Positions 29,220 through 60,095 of a stretch of 64,000 bases of DNA are shown here, one piece after another. Source of the stretch: Pseudomonadota bacterium (lineage in GTDB: Bacteria; Pseudomonadota; Gammaproteobacteria; Xanthomonadales; Ahniellaceae). The stretch covers positions 136,787 to 200,786 of the forward strand of contig JALHNO010000001.1 in the NCBI GenBank assembly GCA_022843465.1. Direction: 5' to 3'. The translations under genes were made by a program, and so were the position numbers. The notes beneath the pieces are model-generated. The model was not told the origin of the DNA, made no database searches, and was given only the letters and a program-made list of their open reading frames with translations. Each line of letters begins with the position of its first letter. Positions within the stretch are counted from its first letter, which is position 1.

Positions 29220-29430
29220 TCTTGACGTTGACGTCGGAGAGCGTGGCTTGCCGCGCTGCTCGGCTCTGCTCCTGTAGGGCATCTCTGTGAGATGCCATCT
29301 CGACACCGCGAGGATCTCACCATGGCATCTCACAGAGATGCCCTACAGGAAAAGATCAATACGACAGCAGCGCGGCAAGCCACGCTCCATGGCTCTCAGC
29401 AGCGGAGCTGGTCAATCAACTCGGGGACGG
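29220..29430. repeat. Composite intergenic repeat with nested inverted repeats
   Basis: Nested palindromes fill this gap. The outer arms are GAGCGTGGCTTGCCGCGCTG (from about 29239) and its complement ending at 29386. The inner arms are CCTGTAGGGCATCTCTGTGA (from about 29270) and its complement ending at 29349. A short TTGACG run precedes the left arm, and CAGCGGAGCTGGTCAAT follows the right arm. The same bricks occur near 34, 46 and 59 kb. The structure is REP/BIME-like; RNA from it would form a long hairpin between two convergent genes. Confidence 0.85.
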
Positions 29431-29442
29431 GCGCGGCTTGAC

Positions 29443-30300
29443 TCATTCGAACGAATCCGCGAACAGATCGGTCTCGAAACGAAACTGGTAGTAGCCATCG
29501 TAAAGATTCTGCACCAGATGATCGTAACCTTCCGGGCTCAGATGAAAACAATCCCGGCCGAGTCCGGCGCGATTGCGCATCGCGGTCAGTGGGCTCGGCA
29601 GGTTTGCCTCACCCGGTAACGGCAGGCCGGGCGGCAGCATGTCGATGCCGTACTTGTTCTGCATCAGACCGAAATGACGCACATGATGGATGCGCGGATG
29701 GGCATCGGCGATGCCGGCATAGGCATCGACAAAATCGATGGCGGCGGCATTGAGCTGCGCCGGAGTCGGCTGCCCCAGATCATTCCACAGGGGCGTGCAG
29801 AACAATGCACCGATCAAACCGGTGCGGGTATCGCGAAAATTCGGATAGTCGTAAAAGCTAAGCAGCACCTCGATATCGGCGCGCTGGGCGAGGATGAAAT
29901 CGATGATGATGCCGAGATCGAACAGGATGGCCTGCTTGAGCGCCTCCACCTGCAGCGGTGTCAGGCTGGTCGACCAGGCGTCGAGAAAATCATTGCCACC
30001 GACGGTCAGCTGCACGATATCGATGCCGGGATTGGCCAGCAGGGCATCCGCGATCAACTGTAGTTTCGCCGGCTGCTTCCACTCGGCAGCGGTACTCCCG
30101 CTTTCGGTGGTGGTGGTGCCGACCGCGCTGAACTGACCGACACCATTGCTGGTGAACACTACTTCGTGGGCGCCGTCCTGCCACATCTCGGCTGCCCAGC
30201 TGTCGCCGACCACCAGCACCCGCGGCGTCTGTGCCACGGTCGTCTGGCTGAGGGCCAGTGGCAGCAGCAGCGCGCAGATCAGCAGGACTCTGAGCTTCAT
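29443..30300 (-). CDS. Exported SGNH/GDSL hydrolase with C-terminal FE tag
   Basis: 285-aa exported esterase/lipase-type hydrolase. Signal peptide (VLLICALLLPLALSQTTVAQ), block I VVGDSW with nucleophile Ser34, block III VGGND, and block V DCFHLS with the Asp-x-x-His pair near the C-terminus. All catalytic elements are present. The chain ends in LFADSFE, the tail shared with other exported proteins here. The ATG at 30300 starts the signal peptide. It is preceded by a 247-bp divergent gap to a DUF2306-type gene. Substrate unknown. Confidence 0.9.
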   Translation of the reverse strand: MKLRVLLICALLLPLALSQTTVAQTPRVLVVGDSWAAEMWQDGAHEVVFTSNGVGQFSAVGTTTTESGSTAAEWKQPAKLQLIADALLANPGIDIVQLTVGGNDFLDAWSTSLTPLQVEALKQAILFDLGIIIDFILAQRADIEVLLSFYDYPNFRDTRTGLIGALFCTPLWNDLGQPTPAQLNAAAIDFVDAYAGIADAHPRIHHVRHFGLMQNKYGIDMLPPGLPLPGEANLPSPLTAMRNRAGLGRDCFHLSPEGYDHLVQNLYDGYYQFRFETDLFADSFE

Positions 30301-30547
30301 CGCGATGAACCCGGTTGCCAATTCTGCAAGATACCAGCATCGATGGCCGTTGCCGCCCCCGCCTGGCTGCGAACCGCCGTGCGCACCGCTGTCGCCTCGG
30401 CCGGCGAGCGCAGCGCGATCGTGCCTGGTCGCCAGCTGGCGCGCCCGGTCACAGCGCAACCGTCACTGGTCGCAATGCGCAGGAGGCACGGTCGCGGGTT
30501 GGCGACACTGCGGATTCACAGTTCCCGCCAGCGACGAGTGGATCCCG

Positions 30548-31411
30548 ATGAGCAATGCCAAACCCGTACACGTTCCAAGCCTGGACAACGCCGTCGAGAC
30601 CCCGCGCCGCGAGGCGCACGCGCGTCTCTGGTCCGGCCCCCTGCTCATTGCCGCCAAAGCCTGGTGTGTCGTTGCGGTGCTCGGCCAGTTGCTGATGGCG
30701 ATCTATGTGATCGGCTTCTACGGCAGGGCGGCGATCGCCGGTGACATGGCACGCTGGAACAAGGTGCTGCCGCATGGCTTCATCGCCGGCGATAGCCTGG
30801 GCAATGCGGTGGTTGCGCTGCACCTGCTGTTCACTGTGCTGATCGTGCTCGCTGGTGCCCTGCAGCTGATTCCTGCAATTCGTCGGCAGGCGCCGGCCTT
30901 GCATCGCTGGAACGGGCGCGCCTACATCTTCTGCGCCTTCGTGATGAGCCTGGGCGGACTGATCATGCTGATGACGCGGGGCGGTGTTGGCGCGCTGTCG
31001 CAGCACATCGCGATCGCCATCAATGCCGTGCTGATCATGGTCTGTGCCGCGCTGGCGCTGCATCACGCGTGGGCGCGCAGGTTCGATCGACATCAACGCT
31101 GGGCGCTGCGTCTGTTTCTGGCAGTCAGCGGGGTCTGGTTTTTCCGGATCGGGCTGACGCTCTGGATCGTGGTCAACCAGGGTCCGGTCGGATTCGACCC
31201 GGAGACCTTTACCGGTCCCTTCCTCAGCGTGCTGGCCTTCGCGCAATATCTGCTTCCACTGGCCGTGTTCGAGTTGTACTTGCAGGCGAGATCGGCGCGC
31301 ACCGAATTTCCGCGCATGCTGATGACCCTGTCGCTTGCCGTGCTGACGCTGGCGACTGCGGCCGGTATCGCCACCGCGACGATGATCCTGTGGTGGCCGC
31401 GGATGGGCTGA
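30548..31411 (+). CDS. DUF2306-type polytopic membrane protein
   Basis: 287-aa inner-membrane protein with about seven helices. It has DUF2306-like features: an HRWNGRAYIFCAFVMSLGG block after LQLIPAIRR, and HRHQRWALRLFLAVSGVWFFR later. Function is unknown. The ATG at 30548 is taken because the preceding 400 bp of the open frame has no membrane or domain character. It lies 60 bp before the LytS-type kinase gene and a similar membrane protein lies after the LytR-type gene, which suggests a four-gene unit. Confidence 0.8.
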   Translation: MSNAKPVHVPSLDNAVETPRREAHARLWSGPLLIAAKAWCVVAVLGQLLMAIYVIGFYGRAAIAGDMARWNKVLPHGFIAGDSLGNAVVALHLLFTVLIVLAGALQLIPAIRRQAPALHRWNGRAYIFCAFVMSLGGLIMLMTRGGVGALSQHIAIAINAVLIMVCAALALHHAWARRFDRHQRWALRLFLAVSGVWFFRIGLTLWIVVNQGPVGFDPETFTGPFLSVLAFAQYLLPLAVFELYLQARSARTEFPRMLMTLSLAVLTLATAAGIATATMILWWPRMG

Positions 31412-31471
31412 GCACGGTGACCAAATGAGCGGCGCCCCCGGACCCTCGATCCATCGCTACCATTCGTCGCA

Positions 31472-32554
31472 ATGAACGTGCCTCCGCTGCCATCGAACTC
31501 CGCAAGCCCGAACTCCGCACTGGGCTGGCAGCGGCTGCGTCTTACCATCGCGGTGTCGGCGGCGCTCGGATTTCTGTTGAGTCCCGCCTGGACGGCGCCG
31601 ACCCTGCTGGTGATGCTTCGCGCGATCCTGGTCGGGCTTGTCGCCATGCTGACGTTCAGTCTGCTCGAACGCTGGCCACGCCGATTGCCACGCTGGCTGG
31701 GTCGCTGGGTCCTGCAGGTGATCAGTGTCGCCGTCGTCACGCCGTTCGCCGTGTTCATCGCCTATCTGCTGACCACCGGTCACGACGCGACGCCGCTCTG
31801 GCAGAACAAGGAACGTCTGCAGGGCATGGGCATGATGATGGGCTTCGGCGTGCTGCTGGTTCCGTGGATCACGATGACTGCCCTGCTCAGGCAACGCGAC
31901 AGCACGGTGCGCAACCAGGCCCAGGCTTTTGCGCTTGAACGCATGGCGCTTGAACGCAGCGCGCTGGATGCCCGTCTGCGTCTGCTCCAGGCCCAGGTCG
32001 CTCCGCATTTCCTGTTCAATACCCTGGCCAACATACGCGAACTGGTGGACTCTGGTTCGGAGCAGGCCTCGGGGGTCCTGGACAGCCTGATCGCCTATCT
32101 GCGCGCCGCGGTGCCGCGCCTGCATGAATCCGCGACGACCATCGGTCAGGAGATGCAACTGGTGCGCGCGTATCTGGACCTGATGCATATGCGCATGCCG
32201 GATCGACTGAACTATTCGGTGCAGGCCGAAGAGACAGTAATGGACCTGCGCTGCCCGGCAACGACGGTGCTGAGTCTGGTCGAGAACGCGGTCCGTCATG
32301 GCATCGATCCCAGCGAGGACGGCGGCGATATTGAAATTCGCGTGTTGGAGGTCGCTGGCCGCTGTCGCGTGCAGGTCAGCGACAGTGGACTCGGCCTGCG
32401 GCCCACCCAGGGCAGCCTGGGTACCGGCCTGGCCAATTTGCGCGAGCGCCTGCAGCTGGTCTTCGGCGACGCTGTCGGTCTGCGTCTGGCTGAACTCAGG
32501 CCGCGCGGCGTGTTGGCCGAGGTCGAGTTTCCGGCGCAGCGGGTGGCGCCATGA
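31472..32554 (+). CDS. LytS/AlgZ-type membrane histidine kinase
   Basis: 360-aa sensor kinase of the His_kinase (PF06580) family. Four N-terminal membrane helices (about 25-140) precede a coiled linker and the H-box QVAPHFLFNTLANIRE. The ATPase part has SLVENAVRHGI (N-box), VSDSGLGL (G1) and GTGLANLRERL (G2). The stop overlaps the start of the LytTR regulator gene as ATGA, so they form a coupled two-component pair. The signal is unknown; the flanking membrane proteins are candidate targets or co-sensors. Confidence 0.94.
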   Translation: MNVPPLPSNSASPNSALGWQRLRLTIAVSAALGFLLSPAWTAPTLLVMLRAILVGLVAMLTFSLLERWPRRLPRWLGRWVLQVISVAVVTPFAVFIAYLLTTGHDATPLWQNKERLQGMGMMMGFGVLLVPWITMTALLRQRDSTVRNQAQAFALERMALERSALDARLRLLQAQVAPHFLFNTLANIRELVDSGSEQASGVLDSLIAYLRAAVPRLHESATTIGQEMQLVRAYLDLMHMRMPDRLNYSVQAEETVMDLRCPATTVLSLVENAVRHGIDPSEDGGDIEIRVLEVAGRCRVQVSDSGLGLRPTQGSLGTGLANLRERLQLVFGDAVGLRLAELRPRGVLAEVEFPAQRVAP

Positions 32555-33336
32555 GCATCGTCGCGGCGACTGCGTTGATCGCCGATGACGAGCCTCTGCT
32601 GCGCAAATCACTGTGCCGCATGCTGGCCCAGGCCTGGCCCGACCTGCGCATCCTCGCGCAGGTACGCAATGGTCGCGAGGCCGTCGAGCAGTTCGAGGCA
32701 CTGCAACCGGCAATCTGCTTTCTGGATGTGCAGATGCCGGGCATGTCCGGCGTCGAAGCGGCAAGACTGATCGGGCGCCGCGCCCAACTCGTGTTCGTCA
32801 CTGCCTTCGATCAGTATGCGGTACAGGCATTCGAGCACGGCGCACTCGACTATCTGATCAAGCCCGTGGAAGCAACGCGGCTGGCCGATACGGTGGCACG
32901 CCTGCAGCAGCGCCTGGCCAGCGCACGCAGCCTGCCCGACCCGGGGATGCTGCTGGATCAGCTGGCCGCGCGGCTACGCCCAGCCACGGAGCCGACCAGC
33001 CTGCGCTGGATACGCGCTTCGGTCGGACAGACGCTGAAGATGATTGCGGTCGATGAAATCGACTTCCTGAGATCCGACGAGAAGTACACCCGGATCGCCT
33101 GGCGCGGCGATGGCGGCAAACCGGGCGAGGCACTGATCCGCACGCCGCTCAAGGACCTGCTGGCCCAGCTCGACGGCAGTCACTTCGTCCAGGTACACCG
33201 TTCGGTTGTGGTCAATCTGCGCGCGATCAGCCATCTCGTGCGCAGCGACAACGAAACCGCCGAGATCCACCTGCGCGGTCGCAGCGAAGTGCTGCCGGTC
33301 AGTCGCAGCTTCGTGCATCTGTTCCGGCAGATGTAG
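32551..33336 (+). CDS. LytTR-type response regulator
   Basis: 261-aa regulator. The receiver domain (about 5-120) has IADDEP, phospho-Asp in FLDVQMPG, Thr in VFVTAFD and Lys in YLIKPVEA. The C-terminal LytTR DNA-binding domain (about 155-258) shows VDEIDFLRSDEKYTRI, the FVQVHRSVVVNL block and LPVSRSF. LytTR proteins bind direct repeats upstream of target genes. It is coupled to the kinase gene by a 4-bp overlap, and a hairpin follows the stop. Confidence 0.95.
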   Translation: MSIVAATALIADDEPLLRKSLCRMLAQAWPDLRILAQVRNGREAVEQFEALQPAICFLDVQMPGMSGVEAARLIGRRAQLVFVTAFDQYAVQAFEHGALDYLIKPVEATRLADTVARLQQRLASARSLPDPGMLLDQLAARLRPATEPTSLRWIRASVGQTLKMIAVDEIDFLRSDEKYTRIAWRGDGGKPGEALIRTPLKDLLAQLDGSHFVQVHRSVVVNLRAISHLVRSDNETAEIHLRGRSEVLPVSRSFVHLFRQM

Positions 33337-33337
33337 T

Positions 33338-33377
33338 GCGGTCGCCGCTGCCCGCCGATCTGGCGGACTGCGACCGC
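33338..33377 (+). terminator. Terminator-like hairpin after the LytTR regulator gene
   Basis: GCGGTCGC (33338-33345) pairs with GCGACCGC (33370-33377), and CGCC/GGCG inside the loop can extend the structure. It starts right after the stop codon. There is no T-run, so termination would be partial or Rho-assisted. Confidence 0.45.
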
Positions 33378-33494
33378 GGCTCGTCGCCAGCGGACGCGGC
33401 CCGTCCATCTGGAGGGGCGGCTCGTCGCAATCCGATGGCCAGCTGATCGACAGGCTCGCACACTGCACCGAACAAGAAGCCAGTGGAGCACTCC

Positions 33495-34178
33495 ATGCGC
33501 AATCTGCACATCCTTGCCGGTCTGATCGCCCTGGTGGCCGGTGCCATCGCCCTGTGCGCGCGCAAGGGCTCGCCGCTGCACCGGCGCAGCGGCCAGGTGT
33601 TTGTTGCCGCAATGCTGCTGATGACCGCCAGTGCGGTGATCATGGCCGTGTTCCTGCGACCGCATCGGGTCAATACGGTGGCCGGTCTGCTGACCCTTTA
33701 CCTGGTCTGCAGCGGATGGTTGACGGTGCGCTGGCCGGTGCCCGAAATGCGTCGCTGGCTGGCTGGACTGATGTGCATGGCCTTCGCCGCCGGCGGCTAC
33801 GCCGTGCTGCTCGGTATCGAGGCGCTCAACAACGGCATCGGTCATATCGGCGGGGTGCCCGCGCCGGCCATCTTCATGTTCGCCGTCGTTGGAATCTCGG
33901 CCGGCCTGCTCGATGCCCGTCTGCTGCATGCCGGCGACATCCAGGGCGCACAGCGCATCATCCGGCATCTGTGGCGGATGGGCTATGCGATGTGGATCGC
34001 CACCATGTCGTTCTTCCTCGGCCAGGCGAAGTTCTTTCCGCAGTCGGTGCGCGGTACTGGATTGCTCGCCGTCCCGGTCCTGCTGGTCGCCCTCGTGCTG
34101 CTGTATTCCCTGGTGCGCGTGCTGGTCGCCGCCAGGCGCCGACGGGCATCGGCAGCAGTCACGGGAGTCCGATCGTGA
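33495..34178 (+). CDS. Polytopic membrane protein, possibly DUF2306-related
   Basis: 227-aa membrane protein with about seven helices and an N-terminal motif LHILAGLIALVAGAIALCARKGSPLHRRSGQVFVAAML. It recalls the HRxxG/xxxVFxxxM block of DUF2306-like proteins such as the one at 30548. GGAG (33485-33488) precedes the ATG at 33495, so the upstream GTG at 33483 is less likely. It follows the LytS/LytR pair by 158 bp and may be its target. Function unknown. Confidence 0.75.
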   Translation: MRNLHILAGLIALVAGAIALCARKGSPLHRRSGQVFVAAMLLMTASAVIMAVFLRPHRVNTVAGLLTLYLVCSGWLTVRWPVPEMRRWLAGLMCMAFAAGGYAVLLGIEALNNGIGHIGGVPAPAIFMFAVVGISAGLLDARLLHAGDIQGAQRIIRHLWRMGYAMWIATMSFFLGQAKFFPQSVRGTGLLAVPVLLVALVLLYSLVRVLVAARRRRASAAVTGVRS

Positions 34179-34206
34179 GCCGGGTCGTGCCGGTCGGTGG
34201 TCGTAG

Positions 34207-34278
34207 ATGTTGATGTCGAGGTTGACGTTGACGTTGACGTTGACGTTGACGTTGTAGAGCGTGGCTTGCCGCGCTGCG
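34207..34278. repeat. GTTGAC hexamer run joined to a GAGCGTGGCTTGC element
   Basis: Five and two-thirds tandem GTTGAC hexamers (34221-34254), preceded by degenerate units, run directly into TAGAGCGTGGCTTGCCGCGC (from 34255). The same junction occurs twice, in reverse orientation, at 45.93-46.02 kb. No gene is supportable anywhere in 34179-34670. Confidence 0.9.
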
Positions 34279-34340
34279 TTTGATTTTGATCGTTCGTCGT
34301 CAACGTCCTCGTCAACGTCGCAGGCAAGAGCAGCGAGTAG

Positions 34341-34367
34341 GTCGGGTCCCGCGAAGCGGTACCCGAC
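34341..34367. repeat. REP-like imperfect palindrome
   Basis: The arms GTCGGGTCCCGC and GCGGTACCCGAC form an imperfect hairpin with a GAA loop, typical of extragenic palindromes. A second, related-looking palindrome (GGCGGAT arm and ATCCGCC arm) lies at 34493-34519. Between them is a degenerate run rich in CACAACC and CCGCAACC. Confidence 0.7.
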
Positions 34368-34544
34368 GTCGGAGTGTCCGCAGCATCAAGCTCCGCGACC
34401 ACAAGCTGCACAACCACAACCTCCGCAACCACAACCGGAGCAACCATCGCCACGTCGCTCGATGCTCGCAGAAGAAATCGGCGAGACGGCGCGGCGGATA
34501 ACGCTGCGCGGGATCCGCCGTACGCGCCGCCGTTGATCCTGCTC

Positions 34545-34634
34545 TTGTAGAGCGTAGCTTGCTGCGCTGCTCTCCATCCATCCATTCTTTTTGCCGAAGA
34601 GAACCAAGAGCAGCGCGGCAAGCCACGCTCTACA
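34545..34634. repeat. Inverted repeat pair of the GAGCGTGGCTTGC element
   Basis: Left arm 34545-34571 (a variant with TAGCTTGCTGCGC) and right arm 34608-34634 (GCGCGGCAAGCCACGC) are near-perfect inverted copies, separated by about 36 nt. The unit can fold into a long hairpin just after the stop of the minus-strand DUF1456 gene and could act as its terminator. Confidence 0.85.
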
Positions 34635-34670
34635 GGAGCGACGCCGACGTCCAGCACTGCTTGCGTCGGT

Positions 34671-35141
34671 CTAGTCGTGGCGCACGCCGAGCGTCAGGCC
34701 CTTGAGGAAATTGCGCAGCATCTGATCGCCGCAGGGCCGGTAGTTGCGGTGATCCTGCTGCCGGAACAGGGCCGAAAGTTCCGGCTTGGAAACCGGAAAC
34801 CCGGCGTCCTCGAAGATCTGGTGCATGTCGGCGTCCTTCAGTTCGAATGCGACCCGCAATTTCTTCAGCACGATATTGTTGCTGATCCGCTTCTCGACCG
34901 GTCGCGGTGCCTGCCCCGGAATCGTCCCGCGCAGATGAATCACCAGACCATCCAGAAAATGCGCGAGCACGCTGTCGCTGCAGGCGCGGAATCCGGGTGC
35001 GTCTTCCTTCTTGAGATAAGCCTGCACCTCGTCCTTGGCGAGCACCAGCCCGGCGTCGGCCAGCTGGGCGATCTCGATCACGCGGATGTCGCTGAGATCG
35101 AGCATGTAGCGAATGCTGCGCAGTACGTCATTGTTGATCAT
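34671..35141 (-). CDS. DUF1456 (YehS-like) family protein
   Basis: 156-aa protein made of two similar halves of about 70 residues. Each starts with a N(N/I)(D/V)(V/L)L(R/K)xxR motif (MINNDVLRSIRYMLDLSD and SNNIVLKKLRVAFELKD) and ends with a CxDxxLxxFLxGL block. This duplication is the hallmark of the DUF1456/YehS family, function unknown. Single gene, no clear operon. Confidence 0.93.
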   Translation of the reverse strand: MINNDVLRSIRYMLDLSDIRVIEIAQLADAGLVLAKDEVQAYLKKEDAPGFRACSDSVLAHFLDGLVIHLRGTIPGQAPRPVEKRISNNIVLKKLRVAFELKDADMHQIFEDAGFPVSKPELSALFRQQDHRNYRPCGDQMLRNFLKGLTLGVRHD

Positions 35142-35342
35142 TGCCGGCTGATTCCATCCCTTGCGTGGTCGTGCCCGCCATTATGCCGCCTGCGCGACGA
35201 TCACGGCAGTCGCAATGTGGCGTGGTCCGGCTGGCCTGCCATCGCTGCAGCGTCAACCAAATTGCTGCGGGCACGTTGAACAGCGCGTGAGGCGCCGAAC
35301 GCGCGCGGCGACCTCGCTTCCCCATCCCACAGGAGCAAGATC

Positions 35343-35831
35343 ATGTTGCGTACCACCCTGCTTTCCAGTCTGTTCGCGCTTTGTCTCGCCACGTCCGCGA
35401 ATGCCGCCCTGCACGTCGACAGCACGACCACCCTGACCGACGCCGCCGGCGGCACCATGGTCAGTCACACCACGGGTGACATCGGCAGCGAAACCGGCAG
35501 CGCGCTCAGCGAGGCCAGCTTCCTGAATTTCTCTCCGCGCCAGAAGGGCGGCAGCGTCAATGGCAATCTGAGCCGCACGCGTGAGCGTGATGGCGAACTG
35601 ATCACTCAGAACTACAGCGGCAATCTGAGTCTGGTCATTCCTGCCGATGGCAACGGACAGGAAGCCCGCACAGTGACCCTGCAATTTGACGACGTCACTG
35701 TCGTGCGTTCCGAAGAAGGCCGTACCATCAGTGGCACCCTGGTCATCAACGGTCGGGAAGTACCCGCCGACGAAGCGCCGCGCTCGATCATCGCCATCCT
35801 GATCGGTCTGGTGCGGCTGATGCAGGTGTAA
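35343..35831 (+). CDS. Exported protein of unknown function
   Basis: 162-aa protein with signal peptide (LLSSLFALCLATSANA) and a Ser/Thr/Gly-rich, beta-type mature chain (SRTRERDGELITQNYSGNLS, VTLQFDDVTVVRSEEGRTISG). It ends in a hydrophobic stretch (SIIAILIGLVRLMQV) that could be a C-terminal membrane contact. CAGGAG lies before the ATG at 35343. No family is recognised. Confidence 0.75.
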   Translation: MLRTTLLSSLFALCLATSANAALHVDSTTTLTDAAGGTMVSHTTGDIGSETGSALSEASFLNFSPRQKGGSVNGNLSRTRERDGELITQNYSGNLSLVIPADGNGQEARTVTLQFDDVTVVRSEEGRTISGTLVINGREVPADEAPRSIIAILIGLVRLMQV

Positions 35832-35857
35832 TGAGCCTGCGCTGAGCCCGCAGCAGA

Positions 35858-35884
35858 GCCCCGCACCTGCTGGAGGTGCGGGGC
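35858..35884. terminator. Bidirectional hairpin between convergent genes
   Basis: A perfect 11-bp stem (GCCCCGCACCT / AGGTGCGGGGC) with a 5-nt loop lies between the exported-protein gene and the convergent CsbD gene. No T-run is present, but position and strength suggest termination on both strands. Confidence 0.6.
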
Positions 35885-35899
35885 CACGCCGGAGCGTGA

Positions 35900-36100
35900 T
35901 CAGTTGTAGCGGCTTTCGAAGTCCTTGATCTGCTTCTCGGCCTCATCAAGGCTGACGCCATAGGCCTTCTGCAGCTGTCCGAGCAACTCGGTACGACGGC
36001 CGGCAATCACATCCAGCTGATCGTCAGTGAGTTTGCCCCACTGCGCCTGCAGTTTGCCCTTGAATTGCTTCCATTCACCTTTTGCGATTTCCCAGTTCAT
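35900..36100 (-). CDS. CsbD-like stress protein
   Basis: 66-aa small hydrophilic protein of the CsbD/YjbJ family. It starts with MNWEIAKGEWKQFKGKLQAQWGKLTDDQLDVIAG, the family signature, and ends in IKDFESRYN. Such proteins accumulate under general or osmotic stress; their molecular role is not known. AAAGGAG precedes the ATG at 36100. Confidence 0.95.
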   Translation of the reverse strand: MNWEIAKGEWKQFKGKLQAQWGKLTDDQLDVIAGRRTELLGQLQKAYGVSLDEAEKQIKDFESRYN

Positions 36101-36268
36101 GGGTTTCTCCTTTGCCTTGCGGGTAGAAAACCAGCGTCGCTCGACGCCGGCGGTGGGTCATCGAACGGTCGGCTTCAGTTCTGTGCCTGATGTTGCCGTC
36201 CTGAGCCCGCGCTGCAGCCAGCGGACCCCGATGACAAAACGGTTGGACTCTCCACGGCTTGCCCCCGC

Positions 36269-38882: not shown

Positions 38883-38895
38883 GCATCGTCGCAAG

Positions 38896-38926
38896 GCGCC
38901 ACCGGAGCCAGTCAATCCGGTGGCGC
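38896..38926 (+). terminator. Terminator-like hairpin after the OmpA-family gene
   Basis: A perfect 11-bp stem (GCGCCACCGGA / TCCGGTGGCGC) with a 9-nt loop begins 14 bp after the stop codon. No T-run follows. Confidence 0.6.
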
Positions 38927-39029
38927 TGCGCCGCTGCGAGGCTCAGCTCGACTGCGCGCGCCAGGTTCAGCTTCAGGATATCCTGCGCCGCTTCGGGTCG
39001 CGCGATCAGCGGCCAATGGAACCGCGTGC

Positions 39030-45900: not shown

Positions 45901-46060
45901 CGCGTTGATCCCGATCTTGTCCCGACGGGGACAACATCAACGTCAACATCAAACGCAGCGCGGCAAGCCACGCTCTACAACATCAACATCAACATCAAGC
46001 GCAGCGCGGCAAGCCACGCTCCATGGCGCTCAACAGCGGAGCTGGTCAATCCCCGTCAGG
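45901..46060. repeat. Composite repeat: two hexamer/GAGCGTGGCTTGC units plus CAGCGGAGCTGGTCAAT
   Basis: In this orientation, CAACATCAACGTCAACATCA is followed by CGCAGCGCGGCAAGCCACGC; the pair then repeats (CAACATCAACATCAACATCA at about 45979, then a second CAAGCCACGC). CATGGCGCTCAACAGCGGAG and CTGGTCAATC follow (from 46022). These are the reverse complements of the bricks at 34.2 and 59.4 kb and match those at 29.4 kb. The rest of 45836-46252 holds no supportable gene. Confidence 0.88.
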
Positions 46061-51686: not shown

Positions 51687-51759
51687 ATCAGGACCGAGTG
51701 TCGGTTTTTGCTGGCGAATTGCGCTTGCATCTGTAATGACCCTGATCAGGATCCGACCC

Positions 51760-52272: not shown

Positions 52273-52428
52273 GAGCAGCACCTGCAGGTCGGGATGCTGC
52301 CGCTGCAGCTCAGCAGGACACTGAATCGATCCGGGCCAGTTTGACGCCGGCCGGCACGGTGTGCGGCAATGTCCGCATCCGCAACGCTTGTGCGTATGGG
52401 CAAGCGACCGATACGGAGAACACCTGTC

Positions 52429-54354
52429 ATGCGCCTCGCCTGCCTGATCCTGCTCTGCTTCCCGCTGCTCGCCAGCGCCCTCGACATCACGGCGCCGGGT
52501 CGCGCCGGGATCGACAGCGCGATCGACGTCTCGCTGTCTGAAACCCAGGACCCACGTGCCTACGTCACCATCGTCAAGCCCGATGCCGCTGAAGGCAGTT
52601 ATGACGACTACGTCTATACCGACCGCAATCCGCTGAGCATCCGGACACCGGCGGTCGCGGGTGTTTACGAATTGCGCGTATCTGCGGCCGAGGCACCGCA
52701 TGCCACCCTGGCGCGCAGGCCGATCGAAGTCTTCAAGCCCGAGGCAAGGATCACGGCACCGGCCACCGCGCGGGTGACCGAACTGCTCAGCATCGGCTGG
52801 AGCGGCCCCTCCGGCAATCGCGCCTACATCACCCTGGTGCCGGCAGCGCTGGCCGACGGTGAATACCGCGAGTACGAATATCTGGAAGCGGGCAAGGATT
52901 CCGGAACCGTCACCCTGACCACACCGTCCGCACCCGGCGACTACGAGTTGCGTTATGCAACCGATCGCGGCAGCGTGCTCGCGCGCCAGCCACTGACGGT
53001 TGGCGATCTCGCCGCGACGCTGTCGTTTCCGGCCACGGTCGCCATGGGCGGCAAGATCGACATCGGCTGGACCGGTCCGGAGAACGCGCGCAACTACCTC
53101 ACCATCGTGCCAGCCGATGCGTCGGCTGAGTCCTACAAGGATTACGTGTACACCACCAGGCCGAGCTTGAGTCTGGTCGTGCCCGAGCAGCCGGGTGCCT
53201 ATGAAGTGCGCCTGCTCAGCGCTGATGGCAAGCGCGTGCTGGCGCGCGGCCCGCTGCAGGTTGGCGCGGCGACGGCGTCGCTCGATGCGGTCGCCAGTGC
53301 CGAGGCCGGTAGCGAGATCCGGGTGATCTGGCAGGGCCCGGACAATGCCGGTGACTACATCGCGGTCACCCAGATCGGCAAGCCGGAGAAATATCTCAAG
53401 TTCGCCTACACCCAGCATGGCAGTCCGCTCAAACTGCAGATGCCCGATCAGGCCGGCCAGTACGAATTGCATTATCTGACGGCGCGCAGCAGCCAGTCGC
53501 TCGCCAGTCGCGCGCTGACGGTGACGCCCGCAACCGGTGTCGGCAGCCTGAAGGTGAGCCGCGCGTCGAGCGAGGTCCGATCAGCGCAGGGCGCGTCCGC
53601 TGGTGTGTCGGCAGGTGGCGAGGTGGCGGGCAGCATTGCGCTGATCCTGGATGCTTCCGGCAGCATGTTGCAGCGGCTCGGTGATCAACGCCGCATTGAT
53701 CTGGCGCAGGCGGCGTTGACGCGCCTGATCGATACCCGCATCGCGCCCGGCACGCCGGTCGCCCTGCGCGTATTTGGTCATCTCAATCCGGGCGGCTGCG
53801 AGACCGAACTGGTCGCGCCGCTGGCCCCGCTGGACCGCGCCAGAATGGGCGCCCAGGTGCGCGCCATCGCGGCGCGCAATCTTGCCAAGACCGCGATCGG
53901 CGCGTCGCTGGCGGCGACTGCCGAGGATCTCGCCGGCGTCGAGGGTCGCGCCCTGATCGTGCTGGTGACCGACGGCGAAGAAACCTGTGGCGGCGATCCC
54001 GAGCGCGAGATCCGCAAGCTCAAGGAATCCGGATTCGACTTTGCACTCAATATCGTCGGCTTTGCCATTGACCAAGCCGGGCTCGAGCAGGACTTCCAGC
54101 GCTGGGCGGCACTTGGCGACGGTCGTTATTTCTCGGCCGCCAATGGCGACGCATTGACTGCGATGATCCAGCAGGCCAGTCAATCCGGACCAGCATCCTT
54201 CGTGGTGCTGCGTGCGGGTGCTCAGGTCGCCAGCGGCGAGGTCGGCGCGCAGGCGATCAACCTGAAGCCGGGTAGCTATGAACTGGTAGTCGGAGATCGT
54301 CGGCAGAACATCGAGATCGTCAGCGGTGCAGAGACCCGCGTCGCGATCGACTGA
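52429..54354 (+). CDS. Exported von Willebrand factor A protein with four Ig-like repeats
   Basis: 641-aa exported protein. After the signal peptide (LACLILLCFPLLASA) come four repeats of about 87 residues (about 18-103, 106-192, 195-280, 282-370), each with W(S/T)GP or similar, an AY(I/V)T(I/L)V strand and Y-D/E-Y-V-Y. A VWA domain follows, with a full MIDAS start DASGS (Asp408, Ser410, Ser412) and DGEETCGG. A short beta end domain closes the chain. Probably a metal-dependent adhesion or envelope-complex protein. The ATG at 52429 follows GGAG with wide spacing. Confidence 0.88.
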   Translation: MRLACLILLCFPLLASALDITAPGRAGIDSAIDVSLSETQDPRAYVTIVKPDAAEGSYDDYVYTDRNPLSIRTPAVAGVYELRVSAAEAPHATLARRPIEVFKPEARITAPATARVTELLSIGWSGPSGNRAYITLVPAALADGEYREYEYLEAGKDSGTVTLTTPSAPGDYELRYATDRGSVLARQPLTVGDLAATLSFPATVAMGGKIDIGWTGPENARNYLTIVPADASAESYKDYVYTTRPSLSLVVPEQPGAYEVRLLSADGKRVLARGPLQVGAATASLDAVASAEAGSEIRVIWQGPDNAGDYIAVTQIGKPEKYLKFAYTQHGSPLKLQMPDQAGQYELHYLTARSSQSLASRALTVTPATGVGSLKVSRASSEVRSAQGASAGVSAGGEVAGSIALILDASGSMLQRLGDQRRIDLAQAALTRLIDTRIAPGTPVALRVFGHLNPGGCETELVAPLAPLDRARMGAQVRAIAARNLAKTAIGASLAATAEDLAGVEGRALIVLVTDGEETCGGDPEREIRKLKESGFDFALNIVGFAIDQAGLEQDFQRWAALGDGRYFSAANGDALTAMIQQASQSGPASFVVLRAGAQVASGEVGAQAINLKPGSYELVVGDRRQNIEIVSGAETRVAID

Positions 54355-54444
54355 GCCGCCTGAAGTCACCCGCCGGCCCGGATCGGAGTAGGCTAGTGCG
54401 CATCGACTGCCGTTCGCGGCAGTCAATCTCGGACGGAGTGGCTG

Positions 54445-54855
54445 ATGACACAGGAACCTGCGCGGAGCTGGTGGGGACGCAACTGGAAGTGGTTCATCCC
54501 GGTCGGTTGCCTTTCGATGCTGCTGCTCTTCGTCGGCGGCATCGCGGTCATCATGACGCTGACCTTCGGCATGATGAAGTCCTCGGATGCCTACGGCCTG
54601 GCGATGGCACGCGCACAGGCCAGTCCTGAAGTCCGCGCAGCGCTGGGCGAACCCATCCAGGCGGGCTACATGGTCTCGGGTCGGGTCAATGTCAGCGGCC
54701 CGGCAGGCGATGCCAATATGTCGATTCCCCTCTCGGGTCCGCGCGGTAGTGGCACCCTGTATCTGGTCGCCGAGAAGTCTGCCGGTCAATGGCGCTTTGA
54801 AGAGCTGGTGCTGGAAGTCGAGGCCAGTGGAGCGCGCATCGATCTGAACGAGTAG
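54445..54855 (+). CDS. Coa1/TIM21-family small membrane protein
   Basis: 136-aa protein. One membrane helix (FIPVGCLSMLLLFVGGIAVIMTLTFGMM) follows WWGRNWKWFIP, and an extracytoplasmic domain begins MKSSDAYGLAMARAQASPEVRAALGEPIQ, ending in LVLEVEASGARIDL. This matches the cytochrome c oxidase assembly factor Coa1 family (PF08695). The exact function in bacteria is not known. GGAG precedes the ATG. Next plus-strand gene is the NapH-like protein, so a respiratory link is possible. Confidence 0.82.
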   Translation: MTQEPARSWWGRNWKWFIPVGCLSMLLLFVGGIAVIMTLTFGMMKSSDAYGLAMARAQASPEVRAALGEPIQAGYMVSGRVNVSGPAGDANMSIPLSGPRGSGTLYLVAEKSAGQWRFEELVLEVEASGARIDLNE

Positions 54856-54900
54856 CGCTGCGCCCAGGGCGTCCGCGGCACGCTCCCGCGGGTGCGGGGC

Positions 54901-56904
54901 ATGCAGTACCCTTGGTGGATGTCTGCCCGCCCAGCCAAAGCACGTGATCGCTCCACAGCGGCCGCCAAGCCATCGAAGATCCGCGCCTCGCGCATGGGCA
55001 AGTGGCGTGCCCTGGTCCTGATCGGCGTCCACGTCATCATCGGCCTGCACATCGCGCACTGGCTGAGCACGGGCGAAACCGTGACCCCGGTCGAGCCGTC
55101 CGAAGCGATGGCATTCAGTCGCTCGTCGATCGTCAATGCCGGGCTGATCTTCTTTGCCGCGATGATCCTGCTGACCGCGATCTTCGGCCGCTTCTTCTGC
55201 GGCTGGGGTTGTCATGTGGTCGCGCTGCAGGATCTCTGCCGGCACTGGATGCTGAAGATCGGGATTACACCCAGGCCATTGAAATCACGCTTTCTGATCT
55301 GGGTGCCGACGCTGGCGTTCCTGTACATGTTCATCTGGCCTGCGGTCTACCGGCTGTGGCTGGGCGATTCACTGGCGGTGCGCGGTTTCGAGATGACCAC
55401 GGCGCATTTCTGGAGCACTTTTCCCGGCTGGATAGTCGGCATTCTGACCTTGCTGATCTGCGGTTTCGCCTGCGTGTATTTTCTTGGTGCCAAGGGCTTC
55501 TGCACCTACGCCTGCCCGTATGGCGCGATCTTCGCGGCCGCCGACCGCGTCGCGCCGATGCGCATCCGGGTCACCGACGCCTGCAATCAATGCGGTCACT
55601 GCACCGCGGTATGCAGCTCCAACGTCCGCGTGCATGAGGAGGTGCGTGACTGGGCGATGGTGGTTTCTCCCGGCTGCATGAAATGCCAGGACTGCGTCAG
55701 TTCCTGCCCAACCAATGCCCTGTACTACGGCAGCGGACCGATTCCGCTGCTGGCCAAGCCGCGCGTCGCGCCATCGGCCAAACCACCGCAGCCGATCCGC
55801 TGGCGCGATGAGCTGATCCTGGTCTCGTCCTTCGTCATCAGCTTTCTGATTGCGCGCGGGCTGTACGGTGTGGTGCCGTTTCTGATGTCACTCGGTCTCG
55901 CCGGCGTGGTCGCGTTTCTGACCCTGACCACGGTGCGGCTATTCAGTGAGCCCGTAGTGGAACGTCCGGGATTGCGCCTCAAGCGCGACGGCCGCCTGCT
56001 GCCGCAGGGCCGCTGGTTCGTGCTGGCGATGAGTCTGCTGGCGCTGTTGCTGGCGCATAGTGCATTTATCCGTACCCAGGCCTATCTGGGCGCACGCGCG
56101 TATTCGACAACGCTGCCGCTGCGCACGACCGTGCTCGAAGAACCGGGCACCGTGCTTACGCCCTCGGCGGAACGTCGTGCCACGATCGCTGCCGGCATTC
56201 GTCATCTGGACCAGGTCGATGCCTGGGGTCTGTTTCCAAGTCTGGGCAATGCCGCGATGCTGGCCTGGCTGCACACGCTGGCAGGTGCCGAAGTGCAGGC
56301 AACCGCGCAGGCGCAACAGGCCTTGCACCGCAACGAACTGCCCGAGCAGATGCATCAGTTGCTGGCGCGTCTGGCCCTGCTCAAGGGCGATCCGGTCACG
56401 GCGGTTGGGCACTGGCAGGGCGCGATCGAGGCGCGTCCGGACCTTGCCGGCGGCTATATCGCCCTCGGTCTGCACTATGCCAGAGCGGGCGATCTTGCTG
56501 CGGCGCAGCAGGTGTTCGACCGCGGCGTTGCCGTGGCTGCGGCGAACCCTTCCCTGTACTACAACGCGGCCCTGGCACGCGCTGTTCAAGGTCAGGTGCC
56601 CGACTCGATCCCCTTGTTTGAACAGGCGCTTGTGCTGGACCCGCGGCATCGTGAAGCGCGCGAGAATCTCGCTGGCGTGCTCGCCAGTCAGGGCGAGTTT
56701 GCGGCCGCAATCGGTCACTACCGGATCGCACTGCAGCAAGCCCCGCAGGACGTGCAGACCCGCCTGCTGCTGGCGCGCGCCCTCGCCGGGGCGGGCGACT
56801 ATCCGGCGGCGCGGCAGGAACTGCAGACCATACTCGAGATCGATGCAACAAATGGCGACGCCCGCGCAATGCTTGACGCAATCGCTGGAAGTGTGTCTCC
56901 GTAG
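54901..56904 (+). CDS. NapH-like polyferredoxin fused to TPR domain
   Basis: 667-aa membrane protein. About four N-terminal helices carry FCGWGCHVVALQDL and CTYACPYGAIFA, as in NapH/CcoG-like proteins. Two 4Fe-4S clusters are coded by CNQCGHCTAVC and CMKCQDCVSSCP. Two more membrane segments (about 300-345 and 375-390) lead to a C-terminal run of TPR repeats (about 465-660, for example GYIALGLHYARAGDLAAAQQVFDRG, ARENLAGVLASQGEFAAAIGHYRIALQ). It should pass electrons and dock a partner through the TPRs. The start is uncertain (ATG 54901, ATG 54919 or GTG 54892). Confidence 0.88.
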   Translation: MQYPWWMSARPAKARDRSTAAAKPSKIRASRMGKWRALVLIGVHVIIGLHIAHWLSTGETVTPVEPSEAMAFSRSSIVNAGLIFFAAMILLTAIFGRFFCGWGCHVVALQDLCRHWMLKIGITPRPLKSRFLIWVPTLAFLYMFIWPAVYRLWLGDSLAVRGFEMTTAHFWSTFPGWIVGILTLLICGFACVYFLGAKGFCTYACPYGAIFAAADRVAPMRIRVTDACNQCGHCTAVCSSNVRVHEEVRDWAMVVSPGCMKCQDCVSSCPTNALYYGSGPIPLLAKPRVAPSAKPPQPIRWRDELILVSSFVISFLIARGLYGVVPFLMSLGLAGVVAFLTLTTVRLFSEPVVERPGLRLKRDGRLLPQGRWFVLAMSLLALLLAHSAFIRTQAYLGARAYSTTLPLRTTVLEEPGTVLTPSAERRATIAAGIRHLDQVDAWGLFPSLGNAAMLAWLHTLAGAEVQATAQAQQALHRNELPEQMHQLLARLALLKGDPVTAVGHWQGAIEARPDLAGGYIALGLHYARAGDLAAAQQVFDRGVAVAAANPSLYYNAALARAVQGQVPDSIPLFEQALVLDPRHREARENLAGVLASQGEFAAAIGHYRIALQQAPQDVQTRLLLARALAGAGDYPAARQELQTILEIDATNGDARAMLDAIAGSVSP

Positions 56905-56970
56905 CGGCTATCTTCAGCCCCCGCATTCCGATCCCTTAGAGTTGCCCTGCCTGGGCACAGGAGTAGTCCC

Positions 56971-58239
56971 ATGCGCTTTTTCTCCCTCCTGAACGCTGCG
57001 CGACTGGCTGCCCCCGGTCTCGCGCTGATCGCCAGTTGCCTGGTTGCACCGAACACCGTCAGTGCCGGCAATGTCGGCCCTGATGTCACCGTCTTCCTGC
57101 TTTCGGACACCAGCAATTACGGCATGGCCGGCGGTATCCGCGGTTACTCGGTTGGCACCACATCGTGCAATATCGGCGATGCCCCGTTGAACTGGTGCGA
57201 CAACAATGGCGGCTGCGGCGCCGGTACCACCGATGAGGATCATCCGGTCATCGCGCAGAACATGTACCGGCTGAAATCGGGTCGTTTTGATCAGATCGGG
57301 GCGAGCTGGCTGAAGCATGGCTTCGTCTCCACCAACAGCACCAATGCAGCCTGCGGCAGTTGTGTGCAGCCGCCACTGGGCGGCAATCAACTCGGCGTTG
57401 GCTGTACCGATCCCTATGGTTCGGGCCTCAATGGTGGCCGACCACTGGGCCCCAAGTCGCAGGTGGATCCGACCACCGGTGTCTATCCGTTCCCGCATGC
57501 TGGTGGCTCGGGCAGTCAGTCCGCGGTCTGGAATCAGCGCGTAGCGGTGGCACAGACTGACCTGGATCCGGGTTCCAACGCGGGCGCGCGCTACTTCGTC
57601 GAGGGCCACTACATCGCGCCGGATGATGCCGCTGCCGGCAATGGGCTGAACAATGCCTCGTACCGCGAAGTGACAGTCAATGCGTCTACGTTCAATCTGA
57701 GCTTTTCCGGCGCCACCGTACAGCGCAAGTCTGCCATCGAAGCCTGGGCCACAATCGATCCCGGCGTGGAATTTTTCACGATTGATCTGCCAACCACCCC
57801 GGTGCAACGCTTCAATGTCGCGCGCCGGGTCACCGATCTGACCGGTGGCGTCTGGCATTACGAGTACGCCGTGCACAATCTGAATTCGGTACGCGCCGCC
57901 AATCGTCTGAGCATCGAATTCTTCGGGCCGACCACATTCAGCAATGCCGGCTTCCATGACGTCGACGCGCATTCCGGTGAGCCCTATGACACCGCCGATT
58001 GGCCGCCGGTCACGACGGCCGAGAACATCAGTTGGCAGACACCGGCATTCGCGACACCGGCCAATGCCAATGCGCTGCGCTGGGCCACTATGTACAACTT
58101 CTGGTTCGACGCCGATCGCCCGCCCGAAGAAATCGAGGACCATCGGCTTGGCCTGTTCACCGCCGGAACACCGAGCGAGATGGTGTTCCTGGTCGGTACC
58201 GCACCGGTGCAGTTCAGCGACGGCTTCGAAGCGCCCTGA
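56971..58239 (+). CDS. Large exported protein with near-C-terminal FE tag
   Basis: 422-aa exported protein. Signal peptide (LAAPGLALIASCLVAPNTVSA), then a Gly/Asn-rich chain with a Cys motif CNIGDAPLNWCDNNGGCGAG and CGSCVQPPLGG near the N-terminus, and a beta-rich C-terminal half (ARRVTDLTGGVWHYEYAVHNLN). The chain ends VQFSDGFEAP, the FE tag with two extra residues. No catalytic function can be assigned. GGAG-like purines precede the ATG at 56971. Confidence 0.8.
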   Translation: MRFFSLLNAARLAAPGLALIASCLVAPNTVSAGNVGPDVTVFLLSDTSNYGMAGGIRGYSVGTTSCNIGDAPLNWCDNNGGCGAGTTDEDHPVIAQNMYRLKSGRFDQIGASWLKHGFVSTNSTNAACGSCVQPPLGGNQLGVGCTDPYGSGLNGGRPLGPKSQVDPTTGVYPFPHAGGSGSQSAVWNQRVAVAQTDLDPGSNAGARYFVEGHYIAPDDAAAGNGLNNASYREVTVNASTFNLSFSGATVQRKSAIEAWATIDPGVEFFTIDLPTTPVQRFNVARRVTDLTGGVWHYEYAVHNLNSVRAANRLSIEFFGPTTFSNAGFHDVDAHSGEPYDTADWPPVTTAENISWQTPAFATPANANALRWATMYNFWFDADRPPEEIEDHRLGLFTAGTPSEMVFLVGTAPVQFSDGFEAP

Positions 58240-58296
58240 TCACCGTCATCCGCCAACCTGGGTCGCGCGGCATCGCTCGTTGCTGCCGCGCGCTGA

Positions 58297-58481
58297 CCGT
58301 AGGATGTGCTGAGCACCGCGAAGCGCATCGATCTCGACCCCACCACGGTGCGAGTTGAGTACCCGCTCTGCCGTAGGATGTGCTGAGCAAGGCGAAGCGC
58401 ATCAATCCGGAAGCCACTGCGACGCAAGGTAAACACCGATCCCTACCGTAGGATGTGCTGAGCACCGCGAAGCGCATCGAT
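58297..58481. repeat. Three copies of the GTAGGATGTGCTGAG repeat
   Basis: About 36-bp copies of CCGTAGGATGTGCTGAGCA(C/A) followed by GCGAAGCGCATC lie at 58297, 58371 and 58446, with spacing of 74 and 75 bp and mostly different spacers. The element resembles a GTAGGATGTGCTGAG family that I recall from other proteobacteria. The surrounding 58240-58527 holds no gene. Confidence 0.9.
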
Positions 58482-58527
58482 CCCGATCTCACCACAGCCT
58501 CGGGCACATGCCGGATCTCGCCCACGC

Positions 58528-59043
58528 TCAACTCCTGCTGCGGATGTACTCCACCAACTGATCCAACGCCTTGCCCCAGCCATCGTGGAAACCGATGTCC
58601 TCATGGCGTTTGCGATCGGCTTCGTCGCGATGCAGAGCCAATGCGCTATAGCGCGTGCCGCCTTCGACCGGTTCCAGTGTGAGCACCGCGGTGAACGCCA
58701 GATCGGCACAATCCAGATCGGACACCGCACTCAACTTGGCCGGTCGATAGCCCGGCTCAAGCACACTGGTCCAGATCAGCTTGCGATATTCGATGACTTC
58801 GAGATAGCAACCGAGGTTGGGAAACTCCTGGCCATCGGGCGAACGCATCACCGTGTGAAACCTGCCGCCCGGCCGCAGATCGATCTCGCAGGCCACGGTG
58901 GACCAGGGCGCCGGCGTGAACCAGCGCATCAGCTGTTCGGGAACCGTCCAGGCCGCCCACACTTTCTCGACCGGTACATCAATGACACGTTCAAGCAACA
59001 GGTCCAGACGCGGATTGAACGGCTGCGGTTTGGAAAAGCTCAT
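58528..59043 (-). CDS. SRPBCC/AHSA1-type protein paired with ArsR regulator
   Basis: 171-aa protein with the AHSA1-like SRPBCC fold: [45 protein letters not shown], then [12 protein letters not shown] and the C-terminal helix [17 protein letters not shown]. Such proteins may bind hydrophobic ligands. The gene starts 2 bp after the stop of the ArsR gene, the usual operon in this family. The ATG at 59043 follows GGAG from the upstream gene end. Confidence 0.92.
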
Positions 59044-59045
59044 GA

Positions 59046-59375
59046 TCACTCCTTCATCGACTTGAGGTGGGCATCGAGTTGATCGAGCCGGCGCGTCCAC
59101 AGATCGCGCTGCCTGAGCAGCCAGCTCTCGGCCGACTTGAGCGACTGCGGCGCCAGCCGATAGGTGCGCACGCGGCCGGTCTTCCGCGAGCGGACCAGGC
59201 CGCAGTTTTCCAGTACATCGAGGTGCTGTGAGAACGAAGGCAGGGCCATCTGGAACGGTTGCGCCAGCTCGCTCATCGCCGCCGGACCACGGCCCAGACG
59301 CTCCAGCACGGCGCGTCGGGTGGGATCGGCGAGCGCCTGGAACACCCGATTGAGCTGAACCGATTGCTTAGCCAT
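59046..59375 (-). CDS. ArsR-family transcriptional regulator
   Basis: 109-aa winged-helix repressor: [65 protein letters not shown]. The usual metal-binding Cys pair of ArsR/SmtB is absent, so the signal is probably not a metal. It begins a two-gene operon with the SRPBCC gene. It should repress its own operon. Confidence 0.94.
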
Positions 59376-59427
59376 GTGCCTGACTATACGCAGCGCGGAT
59401 AGTTAGGGCAATACCTTTGTATAAGGT

Positions 59428-59518
59428 TGATGTTGACGTTGTCCCCCGAAGGGATTGACCAGCTCCGCTGTTGAGAGCCAAAGAGCGCGGCTCGCCATGC
59501 GCGTGTACGCGGGCTCTG
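59428..59518. repeat. Composite brick: hexamer run and CTGGTCAAT element upstream of the 125-bp array
   Basis: GTTGATGTTGACGTTG is followed by GATTGACCAGCTCCGCTG and TTGAGAGCC, the reverse complement of the bricks at 29.4 and 46.0 kb. The 125-bp tandem array starts right after it. No gene is supportable in 59376-60229. Confidence 0.85.
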
Positions 59519-59520
59519 TG

Positions 59521-60095
59521 TAGGGCATCTCTGCGAGATGCCGTCATCAGGGCGCCGCGGTATCGGGATGGCATCTCACAGAGATGCCCTACAGGATCAG
59601 AGACGAGCAGCGGGGCCAGCCATGCGCGTGTACGCGGGCTCTGCGTAGGGCATCTCTGCGAGATGCCGTCATCAGGGCGCCGCGGTATCGGGATGGCATC
59701 TCACAGAGATGCCCTACAGGATCAGAGACGAGCAGCGGGGCCAGCCATGCGCGTGTACGCGGGCTCTGTGTAGGGCATCTCTGCGAGATGCCGTCATCAG
59801 GGCGCCGCGGTATTGGGATGGCATCTAACAGAGATGCCTTACAGGATCAGAGACGAGCAGCGGGGCCAGCCATGCGCGTGTACGCGGGCTCTGTGTAGGG
59901 CATCTCTGCGAGATGCCGTCACCAAGGCGCCGCGGTATCGGGATGGCATCTCACAGAGATGCCCTACAGGAACAGCGACGAGCAAGCGGGGCAAGCCATG
60001 CGCGTGTACGCGGGCTCTGTGTAGGGCATCTCTGCGAGATGCCGTCATCAAGGCGCCGCGGTATCGGGATGGCATCTCACAGAGATGCCCTACAG
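59521..60095. repeat. Five tandem 125-bp units with internal inverted repeat
   Basis: Units start at 59521, 59646, 59771, 59896 and 60022. Each begins TAGGGCATCTCTGCGAGATG, and after about 25 bp has GGCATCTCACAGAGATGCCC, forming a stem. A spacer follows with CCATGCGCGTGTACGCGGGC. Differences are few. The same inverted repeat is seen once at 29.27-29.35 kb. Open frames within it follow the repeat and are not genes. Confidence 0.95.

Follow-up and report, generated by a model that had tools for sequence, protein, structure and literature searches.

GTAG-tagged palindromic repeats of two classes, one with a hexamer repeat in register, form intergenic mosaics in a Pseudomonadota genome

The window analysed here is a stretch of 64 000 nucleotides (G000:C1:136787-200786) from the draft genome of a Pseudomonadota bacterium of the Ahniellaceae (5.18 Mb in 45 contigs; GCA_022843465.1, contig JALHNO010000001.1, termed C1 below). 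The bricks that recur in it are short hairpin repeats of two GTAG-tagged families of repetitive extragenic palindromes (REPs), called R1 and R2, which form mosaics between genes together with a GTTGAY hexamer repeat and an arm, CAGCGGAGCTGGTCAAT. The mosaics are read, with a probability of roughly 0.78, as hybrid bacterial interspersed mosaic elements (BIMEs) and REP doublets forming hairpins (REPINs) that are built from at least two GTAG-tagged REP classes, would have been mobilised by enzymes of the REP-associated tyrosine transposase (RAYT) type and carry hexamers derived from slippage.

Repeats were counted genome-wide or in a sample of 1.59 Mb, which consisted of the entire contigs C1 and C3 (817 kb, including the window) and of stretches elsewhere in the vicinity of the matches listed for R1, the arm, the hexamer and Y1 transposases. 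Because these stretches were chosen around matches, counts over the 1.59 Mb are enriched for matches, hexamers included; C1 plus C3, and C1 plus C3 minus the window, were used as the sample not chosen by matches. The 1.59-Mb sample contains 155 R1 cores, 199 R2 cores and 21 arms, and C1 plus C3 contains 41, 59 and 6, respectively. R1 cores with three or more mismatches were left out of all counts, and for R2 positions and spacings were used, not orientation.

R1 has the form AGCG-K-GGCTTGCC-S-CGCT, or GTAG-AGCG(T/G)GGC-TT-GCC(G/C)CGCT with its tag, and R2 the form GTAG-GGCATCTC-NNN-GAGATGCC; the 13-mer and 11-mer bricks of the initial annotation are the GTAG-proximal halves of these two palindromes. 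Both classes combine a GTAG head and a short palindrome in many copies. Among R1 heads TAG is common, and TGG, TGT, AAG and others are also present. In 125 of the 155 sampled R1 cores, positions 5 and 14 are G-C (65) or T-G (60); nine further combinations make up the remaining 30. As single DNA strands, the G-C form of R1 folds at −8.1 kcal/mol (z −3.3), the T.G form at −5.6 kcal/mol (z −1.3; its reverse strand at −3.1) and R2 at −7.8 kcal/mol (z −4.2).

All four bricks that the initial annotation had described were recovered at their places in the window. GAGCGTGGCTTGC has six exact sites (29239+, 29375−, 34257+, 34618−, 45963− and 46009−) and one site with one mismatch at 34550; at up to two mismatches there are 11 sites against 5.2 expected, so that those with two mismatches are largely due to chance. 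TAGGGCATCTC has 12 sites (one with one mismatch) against 0.6 expected, which make up six inverted pairs, a single one at 29.3 kb and five in a 125-bp tandem array at 59.5-60.1 kb, and GTTGAY dimers gave 15 matches at up to one mismatch against 0.8 expected, those at 17538 and 31086 lying away from any brick. Across the 5.18-Mb genome there are 117 R1 sites (up to two mismatches), 306 R2 sites (up to one), 21 arm sites (up to two, compared with 3 in a reversed control) and 165 overlapping matches to the three-unit GTTGAY 18-mer (up to one); exact GTAGGGCATCTCNNNGAGATGCC, representing R2, occurs 221 times (113 + 108). The earlier view of a copied, probably mobile modular system is borne out, and the bricks are not confined to the window, which would have spoken against it. 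The copies are spread over many contigs, which rules out a single-contig artefact; clustered regularly interspaced short palindromic repeats (CRISPR) and coding repeats were set aside on general reasoning. A search for exact GTTGAYGTTGAYGTTGTAGAGC in other genome contigs, from which records of or near this genome were possibly excluded, gave three matches (Ascidiaceihabitans, Bacteroidota and Deltaproteobacteria records) with no R1 or R2 on that DNA.

The hexamer repeat is in register with R1, TTG recurring every six bases on either side of the hairpin (..GTTGAY-GTT-GTAG-R1-GC-N-TTGAY..). Upstream flanks were those with TAG or TGG heads and no REP within 60 nt, of which 64 of 71 remained after removal of near-duplicates; the first triplet before TAG was omitted from the count. 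In these 64 flanks TTG was found 82 times in phase and 13, 13, 7, 5 and 26 times in the other phases, and with a random register for each flank the mean was 24, the maximum 63 and none of 5000 trials reached 82. Downstream (47 flanks) the corresponding counts were 57 and 6, 1, 4, 2 and 8. In C1 plus C3 they were 27 versus 6, 6, 5, 4 and 10 upstream (29 flanks) and 7 versus 1, 0, 0, 0 and 1 downstream (six flanks), and after removal of the window 17 versus 5, 5, 4, 3 and 8 (22 flanks) and 3 versus 1, 0, 0, 0 and 1 (four flanks); the register is thus present but weaker in the sample not chosen by matches. At R2 heads away from R1 (n = 116) YTG precedes TAG in 91%, with no register beyond it. Counts of TTGNNNTTGNNNTTGTAG across 61 genomes (38 in this genome, 0-7 in the others) are uninformative by themselves, since the backward control gave more in this genome (84; 0-7 in the others), and the register counts replace them.

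The repeated unit varies (GTTGAC, GTTGAT, GTTGCC, CTTGAT, CTCTGG), and both its sequence and the number of units differ from site to site, as expected from slippage. Twelve of the 14 run-ends of the form GTTGAYGTTGAYGTTGT in the genome were examined: seven lead directly into R1 or into a degenerate copy of it and five into a TCC-type hairpin, two of which continue into R1 and one into the arm, while one meets an R1 on the opposite strand and the fifth ends at the hairpin, with R1 on its other side. The GTTGAC run itself folds weakly (−5.9, z −2.5). Runs of (TTTGGC)n far from R1 also occur and are separate from the R1 hexamers.

Long in-register hexamers look like a speciality of this genome, as far as the genomes compared extend. 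R2 at exact match is absent from 60 relatives (exact GTAGGGCATCTCNNNGAGATGCC, 0 matches), the R1 core at exact match is present in four of the 60, with no hexamer run at the seven loci examined, and the same-genus relative G001 has neither R1 nor R2 at exact match. GTAGGAGC heads with three in-phase YTG were found in 20 of 299 genomes, at most four per genome. GTAGGAGCGGC REPs were examined in two other genomes of the order, G194 (18 stretches, one of them chosen for containing a match; 38 GTAG hairpins) and G189 (20 stretches, 57 hairpins), with a hairpin finder that also took non-REP hairpins. YTG just before TAG is common in both (0.42 and 0.49), and the register beyond it is weak in G194 (TTG 0.08, 0.05, 0.03..) and near background in G189. 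YTGTAG therefore looks like a common extended head, and it is the weak or near-background register in these genomes together with the hexamer-free R1 loci of the relatives that suggests the long in-register runs are special here.

The order of the bricks is not random, as the composites, the spacing of direct R1 pairs and the TTG register demonstrate. R2 occurs as REPINs, REPs paired in inverted orientation at a constant distance: among the 199 sampled cores there are 76 pairs at a gap of exactly 27 nt. R1 neighbours closer than 100 nt (n = 57) comprise 23 pairs in +−, three in −+ and 31 in direct orientation, the gaps of the inverted pairs being variable. For direct pairs, 2 nt were added wherever the head had the shorter form TGT (six of 30 gaps; our own adjustment), giving gaps of 22 (15), 28 (four), 46 (two), 52 (one), 17 (two), 23 (three), 41, 43 and 44 nt; 22 of the 30 adjusted gaps equal 22+6n, or 18 of 25 if each gap is counted once per place. 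Composites of the form R1-R2-R2-R1 were found 14 times, 13 with both R1 in the same orientation (three of these in one array on contig C10), and their spacers are alike between loci as judged by eye; the window contains two, at 29240-29386 (inverted R1) and 59985-60128 (degenerate R1). R2 lies within 150 bp of 43 of the 155 sampled R1 cores, at 23 loci, where the density of R2 across the genome would predict about 2.7, and near six of 41 in C1 plus C3, against 0.9 expected, four of these six being in the window. The hybrid state of R1 and R2 thus has good support genome-wide and weak support in the sample not chosen by matches, taken alone. The two classes share arrays at 23 loci; hybrid BIMEs are made up of REPs of two RAYT systems, and no second system, serving R1, was found.

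R1 is often immediately preceded by a small leader hairpin, TCCCC..GGGGATT(G/T)CAT(A/G)G: in the 1.59-Mb sample 22 of 27 such leaders, and in C1 plus C3 seven of nine, lead directly into R1 (up to three mismatches). The arm CAGCGGAGCTGGTCAAT is part of a longer form of this leader, GGGATTG-ACCAGCTCCGCTGTTGAGAGC-CATAG-R1. When each of the 155 R1 cores was assigned to the first class that matched its upstream sequence, the arm leader accounted for six, the short leader for 19, an R2 pair for 19, another R1 for 30, YTGTAG only for 30 and other sequence for 33.

The initial annotation had proposed looking for a REP-associated tyrosine transposase near complete copies, and a candidate was found. 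Among 16 matches to PF01797 (Y1 transposase) in the genome, a 144-residue RAYT-like gene on contig C28 (31775-32209) lies within an array of 19 R2 cores, 11 upstream and 8 downstream within 2.5 kb, starting 73 bp after the nearest upstream core and ending 42 bp before the nearest downstream one; its product contains HVH and YVRENPVQAGL. A further RAYT of 158 residues on contig C16 (14239-14715) scores above the NCBIfam cut-off (101.4). The array around it consists of R4, a further REP-like class that makes up a 209-bp tandem array (4.7 copies) in the window as well, at 62391-63381 (GGGCGTCGCTCCTGCGACGCC / GGGCCGCGCTCCCGCGCGGCC, five per orientation). On contig C35 (95-388) a broken RAYT-like gene, with one TGA and one TAA inside the match, has a further hairpin class, GTGGGAGCGCCAAATTGGCGC, on one side.

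In the reading favoured here, a REP consists of a tetranucleotide resembling GTAG and a short hairpin with the potential to fold on single-stranded DNA. HUH/Y1 transposases of the RAYT type would recognise the two and copy or move inverted REP pairs. By analogy, R2 may be copied by the C28 protein. R1 has the form of a REP but is not assigned here to a RAYT/REP pair; it is probably an orphan class, or has its RAYT in an assembly gap, which a draft in 45 contigs makes possible, or was tied to a dead insertion sequence (IS). Mosaics would arise because REPs of the two classes land inside or next to one another and the arrays grow by tandem duplication. Replication slippage beside the hairpin would extend the R1 flanks (TTGTAG before, GC-N-TTGAT after) in six-base steps; a hexamer arising by slippage of a TTG-containing flank would stay in register with GTAG. 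The TTG triplets at −6 and +22 from the R1 core start are 28 apart, which is no multiple of six and suits separate growth on each side.

Several observations weigh against this reading. In C1 plus C3 outside the window, R2 lies near just two of 32 R1 cores, at one locus. The class with at least two hexamers followed by YTGTAG accounts for only 18 of the 155 R1 cores, and slippage alone leaves the register-free R2 unexplained despite its YTG before TAG. The folding of the T.G form of R1 was matched or beaten by 21 of 200 shuffles. The C28 protein falls below the cut-offs of both NCBIfam REP_Tyr_transpos (6e-21; 74.9 bits, cut-off 80) and PF01797 (21.7 bits, cut-off 23), and among the 16 PF01797 matches no intact RAYT is flanked by R1; no mobiliser of R1 was found. 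The analysis covered a single genome of the species. What it shows directly is the identity of the repeats, their hairpin potential, the register, the recurrent composites and the gene inside an R2 array; mobility, slippage and any influence on adjacent genes are inferred.

The hexamer may, as an improbable variant, be part of R1's own mechanism, copies of R1 being set down or duplicated along a track of TTG hexamers at intervals of six bases and R1 and R2 being exchangeable at the GTAG head with the same linker; such placement would yield the direct R1-R1 distances of 22+6n. If true, this REP system would include a repeat track of its own, in contrast to the published systems compared, as far as their articles were available. 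An origin of R1 as the end hairpin of an IS200-like element, with which it would have spread instead of by a RAYT and whose debris the mosaics would be, is unlikely. Six degenerate-looking copies of an IS200-like gene (C3:242532-245843 and on C12, C13, C4, C8 and C14) have a broken or shifted reading frame (stops were counted in one of the six, on C12), share stretches of 382-814 bp with the C3 copy at 88.0-91.5% identity and are bounded by palindromes rich in G and C that resemble terminal inverted repeats (CCCAGGGCGTTGCCCTGGG). They mostly end in an R1-like hairpin, as this origin would have it, but the ends of the C13 remnant are degenerate, the C14 copy shows one end only and the two intact copies on C25 lie in a different setting, with no R1 in the stretch examined. 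Since REPs are known as IS insertion targets, according to the parts of the literature available, the same picture could result from insertion; either the element used R1 as a target or R1 derives from its ends.

That TTG-hexamer microsatellites came before R1 and served as its insertion target is quite unlikely. In-register hexamers do flank R1 on both sides and all 12 examined GTTGAYGTTGAYGTTGT run-ends adjoin R1 or its leader-type hairpin, but the two flanks are mutually out of register, the repeated unit differs between sites, and R1-type REPs stand without hexamers at the seven loci of relatives. It is very improbable that the hexamers are regulatory sites, such as promoters or protein-binding repeats, kept by selection. 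The strong register with R1, and the resemblance of TTGAC to a −35 hexamer, would agree with such a role; against it, unit and run length vary, R2 sites lack hexamers, and the runs in the window occupy convergent, tandem and divergent gene gaps alike.

The bricks occur in different combinations along the window, as the initial annotation held, with two reservations: the array at 59.4 kb has only degenerate R1, and at 29.2 kb there are just two hexamer units. These (CTTGAC GTTGAC, 29221-29232) stand beside the left R1 of the first composite (29240-29257, plus strand; head GGAG, not GTAG), which is followed by an R2 dimer (29278-29342; cores 29278-29296 and 29324-29342, gap 27), the right R1 (29369-29386, minus strand; head ATGG) and the arm (29400-29416, plus strand; in reverse, ATTGACCAGCTCCGCTG of the R1 leader). 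At 34.2 kb a GTTGAC run (34209-34254, plus strand) leads in register (GTTGAC-GTT-GTAG-R1) into an R1 core with a TAG head (34258-34275, plus strand); further on lies an inverted R1 dimer with a gap of 43 nt, formed by the variant AGCGTAGCTTGCTGCGCT (34551-34568, plus strand) and a second core (34612-34629, minus strand). The locus at 45.9 kb reads on the minus strand, and there the hexamers precede R1 twice, as they do once at 34.2 kb, just as had been noted. It contains a hairpin, TTGTCCCCGTCGGGACAA, at the end of a hexamer run (45917-45934), the run after the distal R1 (45931-45953), one R1 core of a direct pair with gap 28 = 22+6 (45957-45974), a hexamer linker joining the two (45978-45999) and the proximal core with head ATGG (46003-46020); an exact arm follows on the plus strand (46034-46050). 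At 59.4 kb a hexamer run ending in GTTGTC (59426-59443, plus strand) enters a TCCC..GGGA/arm leader, whose arm is on the minus strand (ATTGACCAGCTCCGCTG on the plus strand; 59454-59470), before a 125-bp tandem array of five units (59494-60118) with one R2 dimer per unit, ten R2 cores in all, and degenerate R1. The three arm copies named (29400, 46034 and 59454) are exact; a fourth match to the arm, at 38900 with three mismatches, is of no weight. The bricks had been placed always between genes, and this holds in the window, judged by open reading frames (ORFs) and the Pfam matches of nine neighbouring ORFs (three without Pfam), except that a Pfam-less ORF (33206-34213) runs with its end into the first hexamer units, sharing positions 34203-34213 with them. 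The window also contains a 74-bp repeat of 2.7 copies (58296-58495; CCGTAGGATGTGCTGAGCACCGCGAAGCGCATC..), GTAG-tagged and hairpin-like and perhaps a further REP class, and a 12-bp tandem repeat of 17.8 copies (GCAAGAGCACAA; 1-213), cut by the window edge.

Comparison with known systems is based on the available parts of the articles cited. For TnpA-REP proteins, recognition of GTAG plus hairpin takes place on single strands, with cleavage at a CT dinucleotide (PMC8266576), and the presence of a RAYT correlates with REP number (PMC2817692). The suggestion that the repeats are more complex than a simple REP is mostly covered by the hybrid BIMEs of Stenotrophomonas, in which REPs of two RAYT systems share an array (Nunvar et al., 2010; PMC2817692): as here, they have a GTAG head and palindrome, two REP classes per array and a RAYT gene directly associated with the BIME; the available text describes no in-register hexamer repeat. 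The GTAG-tagged families of Di Nocera et al. (2013; PMC3733652) likewise have GTAG, a short stem, a TT-type loop, head-to-head dimers and tandem clusters; a few are regularly tied to other DNA tracts, which there are long palindromes and here a hexamer microsatellite. REPINs of Pseudomonas fluorescens (Bertels and Rainey, 2011; PMC3116915) share the fixed-spacing inverted doublet as a unit (R2, gap 27) and mixed-class tandem clusters, but R1 neighbours here are as often direct as inverted. The GGGAATC heptamers of Xanthomonas (PMC4692102) are likewise simple repeats with a long unit that lie between genes, vary in length and are sometimes arranged as inverted pairs, with another unit, generally no association with mobile elements and no link to a REP head in the text available. 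A literature search of titles and abstract openings, with subscription papers outside it, gave no hexanucleotide repeat in register with a REP. A REP hairpin and a microsatellite in fixed register would make hairpin-driven flank slippage, and the use of flanking repeats by RAYT-type enzymes, testable, and the two REP classes, which hybridise and of which one has a candidate RAYT in its array, offer a case for mosaic BIME formation. Hybrid BIMEs, RAYT genes in BIMEs, GTAG families, tract-tied REPs and REP doublets as units are already published; what goes beyond the literature compared, as far as it was available, is that a hexamer keeps a fixed register with R1 and perhaps that R1-R2-R2-R1 composites recur.

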